Origin: Nitrospirota bacterium
GTDB lineage: Bacteria > JACPQY01
NCBI GenBank assembly: GCA_016180645.1
Contig: JACPAV010000021.1
Span: 45,793 to 109,792, forward strand
Direction of reading: 5' to 3'
DNA: 64,000 nucleotides
Below are positions 4,053-64,000 of this stretch, piece by piece. The notes beneath the pieces are model-generated. The model was not told the origin of the DNA, ran no database searches, and saw only the letters and a program-made list of their open reading frames with translations. The translations under genes were made by a program, and so were the position numbers. Numbering within the stretch: position 1 is the stretch's first letter; each line of letters begins with the position of its first letter.

Positions 4053-5197
4053 TGTTTGTTGCGGGGGTCGGCCGGACGGCTTACGGGCGCGACGAGCGCT
4101 CCATGGCCGAGATGGTCTATGCGGCGGTCGGCACCGCGCTGGCCGACGCCGGGATGGATCGGGACGACATCGACACCATCGTTACCGCCTCGATCGACCT
4201 GTTCGACGGCAAGGTGGCTTCGAGCGTGTCGATCACGGAATCGGTCGGGGCCGTAATGAAGGAAGAGGCGCGGATCTCGGACGACGGAGCCGCGGCCCTT
4301 TTCCACGCCGCGACCATGATCCTCTCCGGCCGCAAGAGAAACGTGCTGGTCGTGGCGCACTGCAAGAACTCGGAGTCGGATGCGGATGAGATCACGAAGT
4401 GGACCTTCGACCCCAACTTCCAGCAGCCGCTCGGCTTGAACGACTCCCAGGCCGCGGCTCTCCAGGCTTCGGTGTGGATAGCGGCGGGGGGAAGCGAAGA
4501 GGAGATGGACCGCGTTGCGGCTGTGCGCGGAGGAGTGGCCGTGGACCATGTTCGGAAATCTCCGTGGCTGGTTGAACCCCTCCGAGCGGCACATCGGGCT
4601 CCGATCGTGGACGGCTCCTGCGCCGTCGTCCTTACGAGCCACGACTCACGACCTCCAGGATGGGGGAAGTGCCGCGAGAGGACAGGAGTCCGGAGCAGCC
4701 GAGCCACGAGTCACGTTCGCGTTGCCGGCCTTGGCCTGTGTGTTGAACCACACTACCTGGGAGACCGGGATCTGGTCGGATGTCCCGCGGCAAAGAAGGC
4801 TGCTGAGCGGGCGTTCCGGATGGCGGGGTGGAAACCGGCGGACGTTGAGCGGGCCGAGATTTCCGCGCCCTTCGCGCATCAGGAGATCCTTTGGGCTGCG
4901 GCGTTCGGACTGGCGCTGGATCCACCCCCACCTCAATCCTCCCCCGTCAAGGGGAAGGATAAGGAAGCTTTTCGCTCCCCCCTGGAGGGGGAGGGTGCGG
5001 GTGGGGGGGGGCGTGCGGTCGTGAACCCAACCGGCGGCTGGTTCGCGGGCAATCCCTACGTCGTCTCCGGTTTGGAGCGTGTGATCTGTGCCGTAGAGTC
5101 TGTTCGACTCGGCCGGGCGAAAAAGGCCCTCGCCCATGGCTGCTGGGGTCCCGCGGGCCAGGGCCAGTGCGTGGTATTGCTGGAGGCCTCGCCATGA
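4052..5197 (+). CDS. Thiolase-like protein (lipid-transfer/SCP2 thiolase type) without catalytic Cys, carrying repeat insertions
   Basis: 381 residues of the thiolase superfamily: N-terminal VAGVGRTAYG, DDIDTIV, a C-terminal NPTGGWFAGNP block and HGCWGPAGQGQ. The nucleophilic Cys position reads ISDDGAAALFHAA, and the catalytic GH of NPxGGxxxxGH is GN, so it cannot work as a normal thiolase. Such proteins pair with a second thiolase and a DUF35 protein, both encoded next, as in Ltp2-type retro-aldolases. Two unusual segments disturb the fold: residues about 195-222 (direct repeats 4635-4715) and about 291-322, a proline/glycine-rich stretch encoded by a palindromic repeat. Start is ATG 4052 in a TGATG junction. 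Confidence 0.78.
   Translation: MFVAGVGRTAYGRDERSMAEMVYAAVGTALADAGMDRDDIDTIVTASIDLFDGKVASSVSITESVGAVMKEEARISDDGAAALFHAATMILSGRKRNVLVVAHCKNSESDADEITKWTFDPNFQQPLGLNDSQAAALQASVWIAAGGSEEEMDRVAAVRGGVAVDHVRKSPWLVEPLRAAHRAPIVDGSCAVVLTSHDSRPPGWGKCRERTGVRSSRATSHVRVAGLGLCVEPHYLGDRDLVGCPAAKKAAERAFRMAGWKPADVERAEISAPFAHQEILWAAAFGLALDPPPPQSSPVKGKDKEAFRSPLEGEGAGGGGRAVVNPTGGWFAGNPYVVSGLERVICAVESVRLGRAKKALAHGCWGPAGQGQCVVLLEASP
4635..4715 (+). repeat. 16-bp imperfect direct repeats bounding an in-frame segment of the thiolase gene
   Basis: CGAGCCACGACTCACG (4635-4650) recurs as CGAGCCACGAGTCACG (4700-4715), 15 of 16 identical and 65 nt apart. The enclosed stretch encodes a basic, non-thiolase-like loop (SHDSRPPGWGKCRERTG). 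It looks like an inserted or duplicated short element. Confidence 0.6.
4918..5014 (+). repeat. REP-like palindromic repeat inserted in frame in the thiolase gene
   Basis: A C-rich left arm (CCACCCCCACCTCAATCC) and a G-rich right arm (GGGAGGGTGCGGGTGGGGG) flank an inner CCTGGAGGGGG hairpin. This type of dispersed palindrome is common between genes; here it adds about 32 residues (PPPPQSSPVKG...SPLEGEGAGG) without breaking the frame. Confidence 0.7.
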
Positions 5198-7299: not shown

Positions 7300-8093
7300 G
7301 CGCGACGGTGCTCTTCGAGAGAAGGGATCATGCCGCAGTGTTGACTCTGAACCGGCCGGAAGCCATGAATGCCATGAATGTCGAGATGCGGGTTGAGCTG
7401 AACCGCCGTTGGGCCGAGTTTCGCGACGATCCTGAACTGTGGGTGGCTGTTGTTACGGGGGCGGGGGAGAAGGCTTTTTGCGCCGGCGCCGATCTGAAGG
7501 AGTTGGGCGGGTTCTACAAGTCTACGACACCGGCAGAACGCCGTGCGCGGTGGGAGGTGGAACCCGGCATCGGCGGCATCACGCATAATCTGGACATCTG
7601 GAAACCGATCATCGCGGCGGTCAACGGTCACTGCCTGGCCGGGGGGATCGAGCTGGCCCTCGCCTGCGATATCCGCATCGCGTCTGAAAACGCCACCTTC
7701 GGCCTGACTGAAGTGCAGTGGGGGATCATTCCCGGCGCCGGCGGCACGCAACGACTGCCGCGGCTCATTCCGTTCGGCCGGGCACTCGAAATGCTCATCA
7801 CCGCGGAAAAGATCGACGCGGCCGAAGCCGGGCGGATCGGCCTCGTGAATCGCATCGTCCCGCAGGATGAACTCATGCCGACCGCCCTGGCGATGGCGGA
7901 GCGCATCTGCCGGAACGGGCCGCTCGCGGTGCGCTTGGTGAAGGAAGCCGCTTGCAGGGGCATGGACAGGCCGCTTGCCGAGGGCTTGCGGCTGGAGCAG
8001 CTCCTGGCCGAGTACGCAAGGCAGAGTGAGGATGCCCAGGAGGGGCCGAAGGCGTTTGCGGAGAAGAGGCAGCCTGCGTTCAAGGGAAGGTAA
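7296..8093 (+). CDS. Enoyl-CoA hydratase/isomerase (crotonase), both catalytic Glu present
   Basis: 265 residues. Crotonase motifs: FCAGADLKE (oxyanion loop), CLAGGIELALACDIRI, then FGLTEVQWGIIPGAGGTQRL. The two glutamates of classical hydratases are present (TEV and ALEML), so a real hydratase activity (addition of water to a 2-enoyl-CoA) is likely. The ATG at 7296 overlaps the DUF35 stop (ATGA). It shares the operon with two more crotonases that lack one or both glutamates. Confidence 0.88.
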   Translation: MSATVLFERRDHAAVLTLNRPEAMNAMNVEMRVELNRRWAEFRDDPELWVAVVTGAGEKAFCAGADLKELGGFYKSTTPAERRARWEVEPGIGGITHNLDIWKPIIAAVNGHCLAGGIELALACDIRIASENATFGLTEVQWGIIPGAGGTQRLPRLIPFGRALEMLITAEKIDAAEAGRIGLVNRIVPQDELMPTALAMAERICRNGPLAVRLVKEAACRGMDRPLAEGLRLEQLLAEYARQSEDAQEGPKAFAEKRQPAFKGR

Positions 8094-11644: not shown

Positions 11645-12784
11645 GTGGATCTTGACCTGACCGAGGAACAAAGGATTTTCCGCGACCGCTTCCGGGAGTT
11701 CGCCCGTGGCGAGATCGAGGCCATCGCGAAGGAGTGCGATGAGAAGGGCGAGTTTCCGAAGGGACTCTTCCGAAAAATGGGGGCACTCGGCTATCTCGGC
11801 ATTCCGTTCCCCCCTGACGTTGGGGGTGCGGGACTGGACCTCGTTACGTTCGCCCTTTCCGCCGAGGAACTGGGTCGCGCATCGGCCGGAATCGCCGTGG
11901 GGATCTACGTCCACGTGGCCCTGGCGCTGAGCGCGGTCCACACCTTCGGCACGAAGGAGCAGAAAGAGAAATACCTCACGCCCGGTATTTGCGGCGAAAA
12001 AGTCGGGGCCTGGGGGTTTGCGGAGCCTGCCGGCGGGTCCGACCCCTCGTCTTTCAGCACGGTGGCTGAACGGGGTCCGAACGGTTGGCGATTGAACGGA
12101 TCAAAAGTGTTTATCTCGAATGGAACCTTCGCCGATTTCGTGGTCGTCACCGCGAAAACAGCCCCGGAAAAGGCGCTTCAGGGAATGAGCCTTCTGATTC
12201 TCGAAAAGGGAACGCCGGGATTTACCGCCCGGCGCATTCCGGTCATGGGCGTACGGGCGACCGAATCGGCTGAGTTGAACTTTCAGGACTGCGTCTTGGG
12301 GGCCGATGCCCTCCTGGGAAAAGAGAACGAAGGCTTCCTGCAAGCGATGAAAACGCTGACGCTGGGCCGGATCATGGCCGCCGCGTTTGCCTGCGGCCTG
12401 GCAAGGGCCGCGCTGGAAGCAAGCCTGAAATTTGCCGGTGAACGGAAGGCGTTCGGACAAACGATCGGAGCGTTTCAAGGCAATCAGTGGACGCTGGCCG
12501 ATATGGCGACGCGTCTCGATGCCTCATGGCTGCTCACGCTTCGGGCCGCGCGGCTGGCCGACGCGGGGCGACCTCACATCAGGGAAGCGTCGATGGCCAA
12601 GCTCTACGCCTCGGAAACGGCCACGTGGATCTGCGAGCGGGCCGTCCAGATCCACGGGGCCTACGGAATGGCGATGGACTTTCCCGTCCAGCGCTACTAC
12701 CGGGACTGCAAGCTTCTTGAGATCGGCGAGGGGACCAGTGAGATCCAGCGCAACACGATCGCGCGGCAGTTGGGATTCAAGTAG
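11645..12784 (+). CDS. Acyl-CoA dehydrogenase, short-chain type
   Basis: 379 residues. LDLTEEQRIFRDRFREFA start, GFAEPAGGSDPSS, GSKVFISNGTFAD, GERKAFGQTIGAFQ and the C-terminal LLEIGEGTSEIQRNTIAR with the canonical EGT catalytic glutamate. It performs alpha,beta-dehydrogenation of an acyl-CoA with FAD and ETF. GTG 11645 is chosen: AGGAG lies 7 nt upstream and the next residues match the family start. It complements the isovaleryl-type enzyme upstream, so the pathway has two distinct dehydrogenation steps. Confidence 0.87.
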   Translation: MDLDLTEEQRIFRDRFREFARGEIEAIAKECDEKGEFPKGLFRKMGALGYLGIPFPPDVGGAGLDLVTFALSAEELGRASAGIAVGIYVHVALALSAVHTFGTKEQKEKYLTPGICGEKVGAWGFAEPAGGSDPSSFSTVAERGPNGWRLNGSKVFISNGTFADFVVVTAKTAPEKALQGMSLLILEKGTPGFTARRIPVMGVRATESAELNFQDCVLGADALLGKENEGFLQAMKTLTLGRIMAAAFACGLARAALEASLKFAGERKAFGQTIGAFQGNQWTLADMATRLDASWLLTLRAARLADAGRPHIREASMAKLYASETATWICERAVQIHGAYGMAMDFPVQRYYRDCKLLEIGEGTSEIQRNTIARQLGFK

Positions 12785-47049: not shown

Positions 47050-50000
47050 CTACTTGCAGGAATCGGGTCCGGACAGCTTGCCGCCCCGCGAGCCACCCTG
47101 TTTGTCGTAGATGGCAATGGAGCCGTCTTTGCAGAAGGCGAGCTCGAGGTCCGCTGTACCGCCGCCCGATTTGCTGGCCACGAGTGTTCCGACGCCCACT
47201 TCATTCTTGGAGTTGGCTTCATCGGTAAACACGATGGTGCCGGTATCCTTCGACCCGTCCGGTTTGACGATGTTGACCGTCATTTCGGACCCCTTGTCGG
47301 TTCGGACCTGGCTGAAACCGGTTTTGTTCCCGGCCTCGTCCGTGGTTTCGCCGGACACATTGCGCCAGCCTTTGGGATCGATGGAGAGGAGGACGTCGAG
47401 CTTCTTGCCGCCGGTGGTCACCTGCATCTTGCCGTCGCCCGTGTTTCCTTTCTCGTCCGGCGGATGCATTTTCAGGTCGGCCTTGGCCGCCACTTGCACG
47501 CCGAAGGCATCGAGGGACATGTCGAACTTGATCCGGGGCGTCTTGGTGTCCGCTCCGGTCACTTCGAAGGTGATCGAGCCGCCGGGCAGCGGGATGCTGC
47601 CTTTGGCTTCCGATCCGCCGTTCGAGAGTTCGAGCCCCTGGACCTTCGCAAAGGCGCTGCCCTCCGAGAGGATTGGGGCGACATCGCACTTCTTGGGATC
47701 CGTAGCGAACTGGCTGTCTCGCGGTTCCTGGCGCGTGGTGCCGTCCGGTGCCACAAAGGTGACGAGCGTCTGGCTCACGCCGGAGAGGCTCTCGCCGCAG
47801 TTCTGGAGCACGGGGTCCGAGTCCGCCAAGTTGTTGGACCAGATGCCCTGGAGGATCGATGTACCCGTCTCGGCCGTGGCAATTTCCGATTTCGCGTCCG
47901 GTGGAACCGGGTAAGTTGTCGTCCCGCTTTCCTTGCTGTACCACGCGCCGGTATCGTCCACGTCCGTATTCGGATTCCCGGGCCTGTCGATGGCGCAGTA
48001 CTCGAAAGTTCCGGTGGTCGAACCGGAACCGGGGTACTGCTCAAAGAAAGTTCCCGCGATCTTGTCCTGGGTGGGGACATGGGTTCCGTTCGGTCCCAAG
48101 GGGCACTTCAAGTCGTCTCTACCCTTGAATGTGCGGACTTCATAGCCTTTCTTGGCATCGGAGAAGTCGAGCATGGAGAGATCAACTTCCGAGGTGTCCT
48201 TTTTGAGCAGGCCCGAACCGGCCGCCATGTTGGTTTCCGAGGTGATGCGGATCTCGGTCTCCTGAGTCAATTGGGCCGTTTCGGTAGGTGCGCCTTCCGT
48301 ACCTGCCGGAGCGAACGTATCGGTTGAACCGGCGCTCAGCTTGGGGTACTGGTGGATCGTCATGGAAACGATGGTCTTCGCCATCGCATCGTTTTGGAGC
48401 GCTCCGGCGCCTTCCATGTCGGCCGTCTTGGCTTTTCCGACCATTCCGATCAGGGCCTCGACGTCGGCCGGCTGGAACGCCTTGGCGCCGACGCGCTTGC
48501 CCTCGATCACGAAGCTGCGCGTGGTTTCCTTCGACCCGTCCGCGAAAGTGAGGGTGGAATTGATGTTGGCCTCACCGCCGACCGGCGTCCATGCGTCCTT
48601 TACGCATTGCTTACATACGTAGGAACTGCCGCTCAGCTTGCAGTTGGCCATCATGTCGAGCCGCGGAGGCTCCCATGGGTATTTGACGCACCGCTGACCC
48701 GAGACGGAGGCTGCCTGGAGTTTCGGTGTGGCCAGCGGTCCGGCCCCCGGAGCAGGGGGAACAGGTCCCCCGAACGGTGGACCGGCCACCGGGGTCAATC
48801 CGCCTGCGAAGCAGTCCTCGCATTCATAAATGGTCTTGGTCACGCTTCCGCAGGCCTTGCAGGAGTCGTTTCCGCAATTGGGTACAGCCGGCCCTGGACC
48901 GGCGAATCCACCGGGACCACCGGGGAATCCCCCTGGCGGCGGAGCGGCTTGTGCGGTGCAGATGAACTTCTCCTTGCACTCGACTACGGATTTGGAGGTC
49001 TCCTTCGTACACTTCACGCCGGGGGGTGGGTTCGTGCACGCGGATCCCGATACCGGGGGACCGAAGGAGGCGGGACCGGCCAGACACGGGTTGGTGGCCG
49101 AGTTGCAGGTGAAACTCGCCGTGCAGGTGTACGGGGCCTTTACTCCGCCTCCCGCCATGCAATCGCCCGGGCAGGAGAAGGAGGTTTCATTCGGATCGCA
49201 GATGGCGTTCATGTTGCAGGATGTGCCGATGGAGGCGCAATCCGGGCAGGAGAACGGCGATTCGTTCGAGTCGCAGAACTTGTTGAAGTTGCAACCGCCG
49301 CCGGTGGCCGCGCAGATGGAGACGCCCGCGCAATCGGGGTCGATGCAATCCGGTCCGGAGTTGCAGTCGTTGTCGATGCCGTCCGAACAGTAGCCCGCCT
49401 CACTGGTGATACCCGCCGGCTGGGGCATGCAGGTCGCCGTTCCACCGCTGGGGGGTGGAGCTGACGAGCTCTTGCACTGGGCGACATTATAGTCCCAGAA
49501 GCAACCATAGCTTGTGTTGCAGGTGGGTTCCGTGACCATGGTCGAGCAGCCGCTGGCCGTACCTTGGCAGTCAGGATCGCCGCCGTCCGTGTACGGATCG
49601 CAATCGTTGTTGATGCCGTCGTTGCAGTAGCCCGCTTCGCTGGTTGCCGCCGCGGGCTGAGGCGTGCAGCCGCTTGCGGTGCCGCTTCCGCAGGTGTTGT
49701 TCGAGTAATTCCAGACGCAGGGTGCAAAGCAGGTGGGTTGAGTCACCGCGCTGGCGCAGTTGGTTCCGCCTCCACCGCCGCAATTGGACGCGCCCGCGCA
49801 GTCGGGGTCCTGGCAATCGACGTAGGCATCGCAATCGTTGTTGATGCCATCGCTACAATAGTAGATACCCGTCCAGTATTCGCTGGTTGCGTCGGCGGGC
49901 TGTTTCACGCAGCCGCCGCCTCCACCCCCGTCCCCGCAGGTGTTGCCATTCCAAACGCAGGGGGCCATGCAGGTGGCCATGGTGACGAAGCTGGAGCAGC

Positions 50001-51870
50001 CGGTGCTGCCGGCAACGCACTGATTGGTACTGTTGCACGTGTAGCCGGAGGCGCATGATGGGCAGGTCAGGTATCCCCCGCATCCATCGGACACCGTTCC
50101 GCACTTGCCAGGGCACTCCGTCGAAACCGTTTTCACCGTACACGTACTGCTGGTTCCGCACGTGTTGCCGTTCCAGACGCAGGGCGCCATGCAGGTGGCC
50201 ATGGTGACGAAGCTGGAGCACGAGCTGCCGGAGGGGCAATCACCAGGGCAGTTGGCATTGCTTTCCGGGGGGTTCTTGCTGCTTTCGCAGGTGCCGTTGT
50301 TGCAGGTGTAACAGTTGTCGTTCGGGCAGGCGACCGCCGTTTCGCCGGCGCTAATATCGCAGTAGTTGTTTGCGTTGCAGCTGACTCCGCCGCAGGCCGA
50401 GGTTTGGCATGCGTTGTTGCACCAGTAGCAAGGTGACGTACAGGTGGCGGAGGTCGTGTAGCTGGAGCACGCGACCGGGCAGGATCCGTACGTTTTGCAA
50501 TTCTGACCGAAGGCCGCGCCCGCGTCCCAGCAGCAGGAATTCGTCGGGCAGTTTCCCACGGCCGTGTTGACTTTGCAGCAGTCGCCAGGGCAGGAGGAGG
50601 CCGTTTCACTCCCCGCGCAGGTTCCGTTCCCGCAAACTTCGCCCCCGCCGCAGGCTGTGCTTTGGCAAAGGTTGGTATCGGTACACCAGTTGCAGGGTGC
50701 GAAACAGGTCGGTTGGGTGACGGCGTTGGAGCATGAGCTGCCGCAATCGGAGGAGCAGTTCGAGCTGGTTTCCGGAGGGTTCTTGCTGCTCTCGCACGAG
50801 CCGTTGCCGCAGGTGAAGCAGTTGTCGTTCGGGCATGCCGCGGCCGTCTCGCCGGGGTCGCAGTAGTTGTTCGCGTTGCACGTTGAGCCGCAGTTGCCGG
50901 AATATTCGCAGGTCATGGTGCTGGACTTCCAGCAACAGGTCGGCTCCGTGATACACATGGCCGACGTGGTGTTCATGTAGCACGGGAGCATTCGCTTGGG
51001 CGCTGCCGCGGACTGCCGGCATGTCCGGCCCGGGTCGGATTGGCATCCATTGAAGTCCCATTGAGGATCGCACGGCATGTCCTGTTTGCAGGTGTAGGCG
51101 CCTTCGATGTTCTTCGTTTCGCACGTCCGGAAATCGTTGCTCCTGCAACCCTCGAAATCGACCGCGGGATCGCAAGGCAGCCCCACGCTGGTGGAGCACT
51201 CGGTCACGGTCTTTGAAACTTGTTTGCAGTTCGGGGGGGGGGTGGCGGCGACCTCGCTTACGTTGCAGGTTTCCGAACCTTTGGGGTTGATGTCGTACTC
51301 GACGACCTCCGCCATGAGGACGCCATCGTTGACCTTATCCGTGATCTTGACGTGGTAGAGACCGTTCTGGCTGTCGGTCACATCAACCACAAGAGACCCG
51401 TCGCTGTGGCAGTTGTAACTTCCCGGCACGGGGGCTGTGCCCGAGCCATCGGCCAGCGTCAGTCCAGCTAGAGCGGGACAATCCGAGGGATCGGCGGCTT
51501 GTTGCCTCGGTCGCTTGGCGGATCGACCCGGTGCGCCCCGAACGCCGCCCCGCACGCCTCCGCGCACTCCGCCGCGGACTCCCGCGCTGGACTCGTTGCC
51601 AAGACTGGAATTGAGAGAGGAGGCCTGATCGGTGACTTGGCTCAAAGTGGATACAGAGTTCACCACTTGGCCGGCCTGCTCAATGCTGCCTTTGACGGCA
51701 GAGGTGGTGTTGGCCACGGCGGCGACGTCTGCGCCCGTGGTGGTGGCGGCTTGTGTGCTGGCGGCCAATTGCTTCTGGAGGTCCCCCAGGAAATTACTCT
51801 TGCCGCAAGCGCCGAGCGCCGAGGCGAGGAACACTCCATAGACAAACAGACGAGATTGTCTGATCTTCAT
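47050..51870 (-). CDS. Giant cysteine-rich surface lipoprotein with MopE-like repeats
   Basis: 1606 residues. Lipobox ASALGAC (Cys22), a helical Ala/Thr/Val region (about 25-90), a (GVRG) tandem repeat (about 95-112), then about 900 residues extremely rich in Cys, and a C-terminal beta-rich region (about 1120-1606) poor in Cys. The Cys region contains PSI/EGF-like units (FVTMATCMAPCVWNGNTCG twice), CGNGSCESSKNPPE-type units and three metal-binding MopE-like motifs (CSDGINNDCDAYVDC and relatives). GGGAGGTGG precedes the ATG; a CRP-like site lies 100 nt upstream and a terminator follows. Probably an outer-surface protein, perhaps copper-binding or adhesive. Confidence 0.85.
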   Translation of the reverse strand: MKIRQSRLFVYGVFLASALGACGKSNFLGDLQKQLAASTQAATTTGADVAAVANTTSAVKGSIEQAGQVVNSVSTLSQVTDQASSLNSSLGNESSAGVRGGVRGGVRGGVRGAPGRSAKRPRQQAADPSDCPALAGLTLADGSGTAPVPGSYNCHSDGSLVVDVTDSQNGLYHVKITDKVNDGVLMAEVVEYDINPKGSETCNVSEVAATPPPNCKQVSKTVTECSTSVGLPCDPAVDFEGCRSNDFRTCETKNIEGAYTCKQDMPCDPQWDFNGCQSDPGRTCRQSAAAPKRMLPCYMNTTSAMCITEPTCCWKSSTMTCEYSGNCGSTCNANNYCDPGETAAACPNDNCFTCGNGSCESSKNPPETSSNCSSDCGSSCSNAVTQPTCFAPCNWCTDTNLCQSTACGGGEVCGNGTCAGSETASSCPGDCCKVNTAVGNCPTNSCCWDAGAAFGQNCKTYGSCPVACSSYTTSATCTSPCYWCNNACQTSACGGVSCNANNYCDISAGETAVACPNDNCYTCNNGTCESSKNPPESNANCPGDCPSGSSCSSFVTMATCMAPCVWNGNTCGTSSTCTVKTVSTECPGKCGTVSDGCGGYLTCPSCASGYTCNSTNQCVAGSTGCSSFVTMATCMAPCVWNGNTCGDGGGGGGCVKQPADATSEYWTGIYYCSDGINNDCDAYVDCQDPDCAGASNCGGGGGTNCASAVTQPTCFAPCVWNYSNNTCGSGTASGCTPQPAAATSEAGYCNDGINNDCDPYTDGGDPDCQGTASGCSTMVTEPTCNTSYGCFWDYNVAQCKSSSAPPPSGGTATCMPQPAGITSEAGYCSDGIDNDCNSGPDCIDPDCAGVSICAATGGGCNFNKFCDSNESPFSCPDCASIGTSCNMNAICDPNETSFSCPGDCMAGGGVKAPYTCTASFTCNSATNPCLAGPASFGPPVSGSACTNPPPGVKCTKETSKSVVECKEKFICTAQAAPPPGGFPGGPGGFAGPGPAVPNCGNDSCKACGSVTKTIYECEDCFAGGLTPVAGPPFGGPVPPAPGAGPLATPKLQAASVSGQRCVKYPWEPPRLDMMANCKLSGSSYVCKQCVKDAWTPVGGEANINSTLTFADGSKETTRSFVIEGKRVGAKAFQPADVEALIGMVGKAKTADMEGAGALQNDAMAKTIVSMTIHQYPKLSAGSTDTFAPAGTEGAPTETAQLTQETEIRITSETNMAAGSGLLKKDTSEVDLSMLDFSDAKKGYEVRTFKGRDDLKCPLGPNGTHVPTQDKIAGTFFEQYPGSGSTTGTFEYCAIDRPGNPNTDVDDTGAWYSKESGTTTYPVPPDAKSEIATAETGTSILQGIWSNNLADSDPVLQNCGESLSGVSQTLVTFVAPDGTTRQEPRDSQFATDPKKCDVAPILSEGSAFAKVQGLELSNGGSEAKGSIPLPGGSITFEVTGADTKTPRIKFDMSLDAFGVQVAAKADLKMHPPDEKGNTGDGKMQVTTGGKKLDVLLSIDPKGWRNVSGETTDEAGNKTGFSQVRTDKGSEMTVNIVKPDGSKDTGTIVFTDEANSKNEVGVGTLVASKSGGGTADLELAFCKDGSIAIYDKQGGSRGGKLSGPDSCK
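49930..50222. repeat. Intragenic direct repeat of about 60 bp in the Cys-rich gene
   Basis: Segments at about 49938-49997 and 50160-50220 are almost identical, sharing GCCATGCAGGTGGCCATGG and TGACGAAGCTGGAGC. They encode the repeated FVTMATCMAPCVWNGNTCG unit, a recent domain duplication. Confidence 0.75.
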
Positions 51871-53414: not shown

Positions 53415-53565
53415 GAGCCTCTAACGGAATGCGTAGGGGAGGGTCTTCAGACCCTCCCGACAAGAGGGAGCAAGTAGGGGAGGGTCTTCAGACCCTCCCA
53501 ACAAGAGGGAGCATCTGAAGATGCTCCCCTACGAATCGGCACTCTGTTAGAGGCGCTAACTCTAT
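53414..53565. repeat. REP/MITE-like element, copy 2
   Basis: Contains GGGAGGGTCTTCAGACCCTC palindromes twice and GGGAGCATCTGAAGATGCTC, framed by AGAGCCTCTAACGGAATGC and a matching inverted end (CTCTGTTAGAGGCG). It fills the gap between convergent FmdB and desulfhydrase genes, where the hairpins could stop transcription both ways. Confidence 0.8.
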
Positions 53566-55965: not shown

Positions 55966-56093
55966 AAACTTCCTTCGCTCCGTGCGGAGCCGGCAAGGTT
56001 TCGGATTGCAAACCCGGACACATCCATGTGTTTGTCAGCGTATTCTACCCCTATGCGGCTTCCCTCACAAACCGGCTGTCAGGGCCGTAAGAC

Positions 56094-56176
56094 GCGGGCT
56101 AAAGCCCGCGCCTACCCAGGGGTGTCCGACGCCCGGCGCCGGCTTGGTAGCCGCAGCCTTCAGGCTGCGTTCCGGG
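56094..56176. repeat. Two perfect palindromes downstream of ppx
   Basis: GCGGGCTAAAGCCCGC and CGCAGCCTTCAGGCTGCG, 40 nt apart. The second one encodes the last residues of the Ppx/GppA protein and sits at its stop codon. Confidence 0.7.
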
Positions 56177-57431
56177 AGTGCGACAGGGCGATGCCTTCGA
56201 GGATGCCGGAATCGCAGACGGTGAGGGCGGGCAGGCCGAATCGGTCCATGCATCGGAGGAGGATGGCGATGCCCGCGAGGATGAGATCCTCGCGGCCCTT
56301 CTCCATGCCGGGGAGCTTCAGGCGGGCGGCAGCCGGGACGGCGATCAAACGCCTCATGAGGGATTCGAGATCGCGACGTGTGAGCCGCGTTCCGGAGATC
56401 TTCTTCGGATCGTACTTGCGCATTTTCATCTTCAGCGCGGCGAGGGTGGTGACGGTGCCGGCGGTGCCGACGAAAGAAGTGATGAGTGATGAGTGATGAG
56501 TGATGAGTGGGGAGCGCCGGGTGACGGGTGACGGGTGACGAGTCAGGTGCGCGGAAGACACCATCCTTTCTACGGGAGCCAGTGCCGCGTTGATCGCTTC
56601 ATCGAGCTTACGCATCTCGAACAGAAGCGGCGGATCGTGGTGGAGGTGGGTTTCCGTGAGACGGACGACGCCGAGGGGGGTGGTTTGGATGCCGCGGATT
56701 CCTCCAAATGCCTGGCACTTGCCTTCGTTCGGCGCCGTCCTGGCGCCGTTGATCGGCAAGTGCCGCAACATCTTTGTCTGGTAGGGGAGCATCTTTAGAT
56801 GCTCCCTCTTGCCGGGAGGGTCTGAAGACCCACCCCCACGCATTTTGTCACAGAGGATGAATTCCGTGCTCCCGCCGCCGATGTCGACGACCAGAAGAGG
56901 TGATCCCGTGATCCCGTGATCCCGTGATCCCGAGACGGGGTCTCTTTTTCTCCGGTTCACGGGTTCACGATTTACAGGCTCACGAGGCTGTTTCAGCCCG
57001 TAGATGATTCCACGCATGGCGTAGGTGGCCTCCTGCCGGGCGCTCACGATGCGCACGTCCCAGCCGTAGCGCTTACGGATGCGAGCAAGCAGTCGCGGTC
57101 CATCCTTCGCGGTACGAAAGGCAGCCGTGCAGATTCCGCCGGCCCAGTCCACGCGGTGCGTTCGAATCTCCCGGGCGAAGTCGTCCAGCGCCGCCAGGGA
57201 TCTCTTGACCGCATCCGGATGAAAAGTCTTCCGTTTGTGCAGATCCTGGCCGAGGCGCGTGATGGAGCGGAGGACCCTGATCGGCCGGAGCGTGATCCCG
57301 TGACCCCGTGACCCCGTGAGCCGGCGAGTCCGCGTCTGGTTCACGGGTTCCCGATTCCCGGGCTCACGGATCTCGGCGATGAGCACGCGAAATGTATTCG
57401 TTCCAAGATCAAAGGTGGCCACGCGCATCAT
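56160..57431 (-). CDS. ppx: Ppx/GppA phosphatase with four in-frame repeat insertions
   Basis: 423 residues against about 300 usual. RVATFDLGTNTFRVLIAEI, GICTAAFRTAKDG, VVDIGGGSTEFIL, LGVVRLTE and FVGTAGTVTTLAAL are the exopolyphosphatase/pppGpp phosphatase blocks of the ASKHA fold. Between them lie insertions: REPGNREPVNQTRTRR (about 37-60), REPVNREPVNRRKRDPVSGS (about 175-205), a 50-residue segment with KREHLKMLPYQTK (about 220-270) and LITHHSSLITS (about 305-335). All match simple or palindromic DNA repeats. ATG 57431 is 6 nt from TATGAT. Conserved motifs are intact, so function may persist. Confidence 0.85.
   Translation of the reverse strand: MMRVATFDLGTNTFRVLIAEIREPGNREPVNQTRTRRLTGSRGHGITLRPIRVLRSITRLGQDLHKRKTFHPDAVKRSLAALDDFAREIRTHRVDWAGGICTAAFRTAKDGPRLLARIRKRYGWDVRIVSARQEATYAMRGIIYGLKQPREPVNREPVNRRKRDPVSGSRDHGITGSPLLVVDIGGGSTEFILCDKMRGGGSSDPPGKREHLKMLPYQTKMLRHLPINGARTAPNEGKCQAFGGIRGIQTTPLGVVRLTETHLHHDPPLLFEMRKLDEAINAALAPVERMVSSAHLTRHPSPVTRRSPLITHHSSLITSFVGTAGTVTTLAALKMKMRKYDPKKISGTRLTRRDLESLMRRLIAVPAAARLKLPGMEKGREDLILAGIAILLRCMDRFGLPALTVCDSGILEGIALSHSRNAA
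56479..56541. repeat. Heptamer tandem repeats inside ppx
   Basis: GTGATGA x4 (56479-56506) and GTGACGG x3 (56521-56541). Read on the minus strand in frame they give LITHHSSLITS and RHPSPVTRR. Confidence 0.8.
56755..56850. repeat. REP/MITE-like element, copy 3, inside ppx
   Basis: GGGAGCATCTTTAGATGCTCC and GGGAGGGTCTGAAGACCCAC next to each other, same units as copies 1, 2 and 5. Translated in frame as part of the largest ppx insertion. Confidence 0.8.
56900..56931. repeat. Octamer repeat GTGATCCC x4 inside ppx
   Basis: Four exact GTGATCCC units followed by an AGACGGGGTCTC palindrome-like stretch and GTTCACGG words up to about 56985. Confidence 0.8.
57292..57323. repeat. Octamer repeat GTGACCCC type inside ppx
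   Basis: GTGATCCC-GTGACCCC-GTGACCCC-GTGAGCCG, followed by GGTTCACGGGTTCCCG words to about 57375. Confidence 0.75.
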
Positions 57432-57443: not shown

Positions 57444-57506
57444 CGTTCGTAAACGAAAACGGGGTAGCGCCATTTCGCCACCCCGTTACGTGTTGCTTGT
57501 TGAGGT

Positions 57507-63775: not shown

Positions 63776-64000
63776 AGCTCGACTTTTGCCATTTCTTGAA
63801 AGGTTTATGTTTGGTCATTATGCGTAGGGGAGGGTCTTCAGACCCTCCCGACAAGGGGGAGCAACCAAGAGGGAGCACCTGAAGGTGCTCCCCTACGAGG
63901 AGGCATTCTGTCAGAGGCTCTGAGATCGACTTTTGCCATTTTTTGAAAGGTTTATGTTGGTCATTATGCGTAGGGGAGGGTCTTCAGACCCTCCCGACAA
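63776..64000. repeat. REP/MITE-like element, copies 4 and 5 (last one cut by window end)
   Basis: Two tandem units each begin with (A)TCGACTTTTGCCATTT.TTG and TTTATGT.TGGTCATTATGCG, then GGGAGGGTCTTCAGACCCTC; the first also has GGGAGCACCTGAAGGTGCTC and ends ATTCTGTCAGAGGCTCTGA. Same units as 43.0-43.4, 53.4-53.6 and 56.8 kb. Confidence 0.85.

Follow-up and report, generated by a model that had tools for sequence, protein, structure and literature searches.

The window (the whole 64 kb stretch of DNA that was analysed) carries on its reverse strand a ppx/gppA gene (Table 1; a further ATG lies upstream of the start of this reading frame, at 57473) whose product is predicted, from its sequence and a structural model, to be a Ppx/GppA exopolyphosphatase-type enzyme. 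The frame matches the Ppx-GppA profile PF02541 with an E-value of 5.9e-37 (128 bits against a curated cut-off of 27), and a search of the host genome (G000) with this profile returns it as the sole Ppx/GppA gene found, the two matches being pieces of one gene. The host lineage is deep; the genomes searched include one relative from the same family (G001), the others being listed under the same domain only. The first-pass annotation had described the conserved blocks of the enzyme as intact and this is borne out: against the G001 orthologue they retain 58% amino acid identity over aligned codons, and all invariant columns of a separate 35-member alignment are present in the protein. Identity by codon position (0.65/0.73/0.42) has the pattern that, at the level of sequence, would be expected under long purifying selection, and the 423 codons run without stop or frameshift despite four insertions and their degenerate arms; the enzyme is presumably still made and active.

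The inserted segments of ppx

Compared pairwise with G001, Ppx contains extra segments of 22, 26 (12+14), 47, and 22 residues (117 in total, against a first estimate of ~120 at four places). In a MAFFT alignment of 55 rows (in which G001 occurs twice and a few other loci are also duplicated), the four segments are without counterpart in the rows printed, being missing both from G001 and from homologues in other lineages. The four tandem arrays named earlier are all recovered by Tandem Repeats Finder (Table 1), and are the only TCAC-type arrays of at least three units in the window.

Table 1. Features of the ppx locus, with positions numbered from the first letter of the window (TRF, Tandem Repeats Finder).
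Feature	Position	Strand	Description
ppx/gppA reading frame, 423 aa	56160-57431	(-)	PF02541 profile match; fold match to Aquifex Ppx/GppA 1t6d
Insertion 1 (~22 aa), octamer element	57284-57371	(-)	Array GTGATCCC/GTGACCCC, 57291-57319 (TRF: CGTGACCC x3.6, 95% matches), and opposite degenerate arm, ~57335-57368; peptide REPGNREPVNQTRTRRLTGSRGHGIT
Insertion 2 (~26 aa), octamer element	56895-56993	(-)	Array (GTGATCCC)4.1, 56900-56932 (TRF: GTGATCCC x4.1, 100% matches), and opposite arm, ~56952-56987; peptide REPVNREPVNRRKRDPVSGSRDHGITGS
Insertion 3 (47 aa)	56706-56846	(-)	Dispersed two-hairpin REP starting GTAG, ~56781-56848, and second palindrome, ~56714-56764
Insertion 4 (22 aa), two heptamer arrays	56478-56549	(-)	(GTGATGA)4.6, 56478-56509 (TRF: AGTGATG x4.6, 100% matches), and (GTGACGG)3.3, 56518-56540 (TRF: CGGGTGA x3.3, 100% matches); peptide HLTRHPSPVTRRSPLITHHSSLIT
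Palindrome holding the ppx TGA stop (56160-56162)	56151-56172	(-)	CCGCAGCCTTCAGGCTGCGT
Dispersed palindrome downstream of ppx	56092-56116	.	Also matched at 6 loci of G000 and 1 of G001

Read on the coding strand, the units of the four arrays are TCACTCA, TCACCCG, TCACGGGA, and TCACGGGG. Because all consist of TCAC (GTGA in the reverse complement) and three or four variable bases after it, heptamers and octamers form one superfamily, and the earlier description of "several unrelated types" is not supported; the repeats of ppx reduce to two families (TCAC arrays and the REP), not five. Insertions 1 and 2 are each a hairpin-like octamer element in which the opposite arm is degenerate. The second of these folds better than shuffled sequence (z -4.2), the first only slightly so (z -1.1); the octamer sequence of insertion 1 is matched at 11 other G000 loci. 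For the second palindrome of insertion 3, no other match was found in the sampled sequence. The stop codon had also been attributed to a palindrome, and the TGA does lie inside one; its proposed nature as a dispersed repeat was rejected, the sample containing no other copy.

The insertions were mapped onto an AlphaFold model of Ppx, which adopts a confident Ppx fold (mean pLDDT 82.8, pTM 0.82) and for which Foldseek places the Aquifex Ppx/GppA structure 1t6d at top rank (E 4.8e-30). By ten-residue blocks, most of the core exceeds 90, against 32 to 76 for the blocks of the inserts; each stretch with a pLDDT below 50 (33-41, 165-169, 202-241, 306-309) falls within an insert. All four appear in the model as low-confidence loops and are best read, from that low confidence, as probable flexible surface loops.

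The REP-type palindrome of insertion 3

The REP of insertion 3 has ~43 further matches in G000. Like the REP elements linked to Y1 transposases (RAYTs), it starts with GTAG and comprises two hairpins. Y1 transposase matches (PF01797) number 7 in G000 and 8 in G001, and some Y1 genes share contigs with REP copies, kilobases apart. Of the 65 copies in 945 kb of sampled sequence, 54 lie between genes, 6 meet a gene edge, and 5 fall within three predicted genes (one of them Ppx), the last a departure from REPs in general, which are typically extragenic. Elsewhere in the window, further two-hairpin REP copies lie at 53433-53513 (in tandem) and 63811-64000; the region 49317-50855 contains degenerate direct repeats at ~220-260 bp spacing and is probably a gene for a repetitive protein.

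TCAC arrays elsewhere in the genome

Such arrays are not confined to ppx: similar ones occur within or at the ends of other genes, in both G000 and its family relative. The four-unit heptamer pattern has 67 matches in G000 and 23 in G001 (a count in which windows may overlap), the three-unit octamer pattern 45 and 10, respectively; the head-to-tail 7-base units are dispersed through the genome, and octamer arrays occur as well. We sampled 60 stretches around many of the array sites (545 kb with the window) and found 76 array clusters with at least three units; three-unit arrays may arise by chance and were not relied on singly. Many of the arrays are paired as inverted arms. A C-rich/G-rich inverted repeat (CCTCCCCCTTGAGGGGGAGGG and similar) was also seen adjoining or nested in TCAC elements (in sampled stretches, L152:3553-3673, L115:1340-1367, and L146:3410-3552).

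What is unusual in ppx is the presence of three separate arrays and a REP within one gene. On rough assumptions, three arrays in a single gene are more than chance scatter would give: three same-gene pairs have P ~1e-5 (from ~15 internal arrays of at least four units and 4,200 genes, where gene number and independence are assumptions), and a looser clustering count that includes three-unit arrays gives P ~1e-8.

Among G000 arrays of at least four units, those in predicted genes are sense in 37 cases and antisense in 1, those at gene edges are antisense in all 16 cases, and 22 are intergenic; genes were called with a simple hexamer script, and the sense rule is partly circular in that an open reading frame cannot hold the stop-bearing antisense array. 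Support free of this circularity comes from genes in which Pfam homology continues on both sides of the array. The enzymes so matched include MnmA, CaiB/BaiF, a class-III aminotransferase (BioA, to judge by its PDB hits), agmatine deiminase, and an FAD-linked oxidase. The stop content of the units accounts for which insertions a gene can keep: the sense strand is nearly always open (in all three frames for 61 of the 64 possible TCACNNN units, and for 232 of 256 octamer units), and the antisense strand always carries TGA (all three frames stopped in 64/64 and 256/256, respectively). At gene ends, the GTGA strand supplies the TGA stop.

A second recurrent location is the start of genes, where 19 sense arrays of at least four units fall within the first 40 codons of predicted genes. 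Several of these, with signal peptides read by eye, form the hydrophobic part of putative lipoprotein or secretory signal peptides (e.g., ITLHSSLFT before a cysteine). Five tandem paralogous lipoprotein-like genes on one contig carry ITLHSSL(I/F)T or a variant in their signal peptides (L130:142-166, 2597-2621, 5044-5061, 7347-7371, and 12540-12564); these make up five of the early-codon arrays, of which one has just three units. In some orthologue pairs of G000 and G001, both members have an array at one signal-peptide position with different spacers, as at L158:3233-3257 and L180:15015-15046.

Insertion, replacement, and the constancy of TCAC

Comparison with G001 reveals that an array need not lengthen its host protein. 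The first array of MnmA sits in a variable loop that is longer in G001, and the second adds ~2 residues; the first array of the FAD oxidase adds ~3 residues, and the second aligns without a gap. The BioA array likewise aligns without a gap, with a degenerate array at the same spot in G001. Against solved structures, the CaiB array is gapless and that of agmatine deiminase differs by about one residue. Insertion as the sole route was rejected on these grounds (the gapless BioA, CaiB, and second FAD-oxidase arrays, and the small net difference at the second MnmA array). Not every array is therefore an insertion; some replace sequence without a change in length, for which simple insertion does not account.

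In array-centred stretches, 38 of the 76 runs of at least four units have spacers that are all different around a constant TCAC. The stretches were chosen by the TCAC pattern, which biases any count of TCAC against other tetramers and affects the spread of spacers less. Simple slippage as the whole story was rejected, half of the runs of at least four units having all-different spacers. No excess of GTGA was found in 400 kb of other G000 sequence, these stretches being hand-picked after the array positions were known rather than random.

The pattern extends beyond the family. Heptamer pattern matches occur in 60 of 386 genomes (maximum 133 in one), and for perfect four-unit arrays chance is excluded, with no four-unit heptamer match in the remaining 326. 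In 20 stretches from seven such genomes, the majority of arrays occupy a short open frame or no frame at all, and several fall in longer, possibly coding ones of ~180 to 620 codons. Among the latter is a TCAC heptamer array in G192, a genome of another lineage, where the open frame has 618 codons (L230:1659-1683).

Relation to known repeats

Among known repeats, a close counterpart is provided by the Rickettsia palindromic elements (RPEs; Ogata et al, 2000), described in PMC3767692 and PMC10969869 as in-frame palindromes that place a recurrent peptide in protein genes of unrelated functions and that form families of 100-150 bp with fixed sequence. The likeness drawn in the first-pass annotation, of in-frame repeats that spare the motifs of their host, is supported by the alignments and the AlphaFold model: ppx and other Pfam-matched genes carry dispersed, partly palindromic repeats in frame within conserved sequence. 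The elements themselves differ, in that conserved palindromes of 100-150 bp are replaced here by 7-8-base TCAC units with variable spacers (the REP alone being a fixed palindrome), and the host, which has a single family-level relative among the genomes compared, comes from a deep lineage that, as far as could be told, lies outside the Rickettsiales.

Closer in unit length are the TAACTGA heptamer direct repeats of the Beggiatoaceae, which have stops in all three frames of one strand and read through (LSVISYQ) on the opposite one (PMC4679880). These are mostly intergenic, upstream of starts; those that are coding lie mostly at the periphery of ORFs, and forward repeats overlap ORF ends (PMC4679880). 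The present arrays share with them the 7-base tandem unit, the one stopped strand, and the overlap with ORF ends, which the GTGA arms at gene edges resemble, yet they also lie inside conserved domains, have variable spacers, and are in many cases paired as inverted arms. Enterobacterial RU/ERIC repeats, which also occur in ORFs and signal peptides, are fixed elements of 103-168 bp (PMC2759123); they are longer than the units seen here, which are short and tandem and which recur in many secreted proteins as part of the signal peptide. Our search of the open-access literature found no paper on TCAC+N arrays.

Discussion

We regard it as probable that a Ppx/GppA-type enzyme gene took up four dispersed repeat pieces after the split from G001 (a timing that rests on this one same-family genome), and that their survival reflects reading-frame logic and permissive sites. 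Two of the pieces are octamer hairpin elements; the others are a pair of heptamer arrays and a REP-type palindrome. As the length of a TCAC+N3/N4 unit is not divisible by three, an array yields the same short peptide cycle in each frame; given the stop content of the two strands, it can be carried inside a gene only where TCAC is on the coding strand, the net length is divisible by three, and the site is a tolerant loop. We infer that each piece entered the gene through insertion of a mobile or slippage-expanded repeat, and was not selected for protein function.

A broader reading, which we offer tentatively and judge more likely wrong than right, is that TCAC+N3/N4 arrays constitute a widespread, unnamed class of sequence-specific repeat whose TCAC serves as a recognition motif that some machinery writes or maintains, the arrays being able to replace sequence without change of length and being repeatedly recruited for signal peptides and loops. 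A related alternative, in which TCAC acts as a signal at the level of DNA or RNA (a protein-binding or recombination motif) and its coding placement is a by-product, seems to us unlikely. It would accommodate the runs of constant TCAC with all-different spacers, which pure slippage would not give, as well as the G000/G001 orthologue pairs whose arrays coincide in signal-peptide position and differ in N3, the degenerate array common to the BioA pair, and the spread of arrays among genomes; against this, some of the constancy is ascertainment (the search pattern itself fixed TCAC), no binding protein or transposase is tied to TCAC arrays, and at sites so deep within the Ppx gene a regulatory role is improbable.

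Returning to uptake of repeats by a maintained gene, a gene in decay might be suspected instead, with repeats piling up in a dispensable ppx under relaxed constraint, given that most G000 genes carry no array and this one carries three and a REP. We consider this quite improbable: the long frame is uninterrupted, the invariant columns are kept, no second Ppx was found that could take over, and the same array class occurs in conserved genes elsewhere. We place still less weight on ppx being a phase-variable contingency gene, switched off and on as gain or loss of a 7- or 8-base unit shifts the frame; a single slip in arrays that are perfect over up to 4.6 copies would indeed cause a frameshift (neither unit being a multiple of three), and +7 and +8 slips would compensate each other, but the copies per array are few, insertions 1 and 2 each have an opposite arm that has already degenerated and so are not freely slipping, and similar arrays occur in housekeeping enzymes (MnmA, BioA) rather than in surface or variable genes. 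Selection of the inserted peptides for a protein function of Ppx is the least credible account, for despite the similar peptides of insertions 1 and 2 (REPVN..., GSR.HGIT), the same peptides occur in unrelated proteins as translated DNA repeat and AlphaFold gives them as low-confidence loops.

The ppx gene is a genuine and rather striking example of a conserved enzyme gene that holds repeat DNA within its reading frame, kin to the protein-coding repeats known elsewhere. For gene annotation it is a caution, these segments being repeat DNA and not conserved protein. If the proposed uptake is correct, tandem repeats whose unit is not a multiple of three would be able to enter reading frames safely in one orientation, feeding new peptide into conserved enzymes and supplying signal peptides and stop codons, and the old idea that oligomer repeats seed coding sequence would become testable in a natural lineage.
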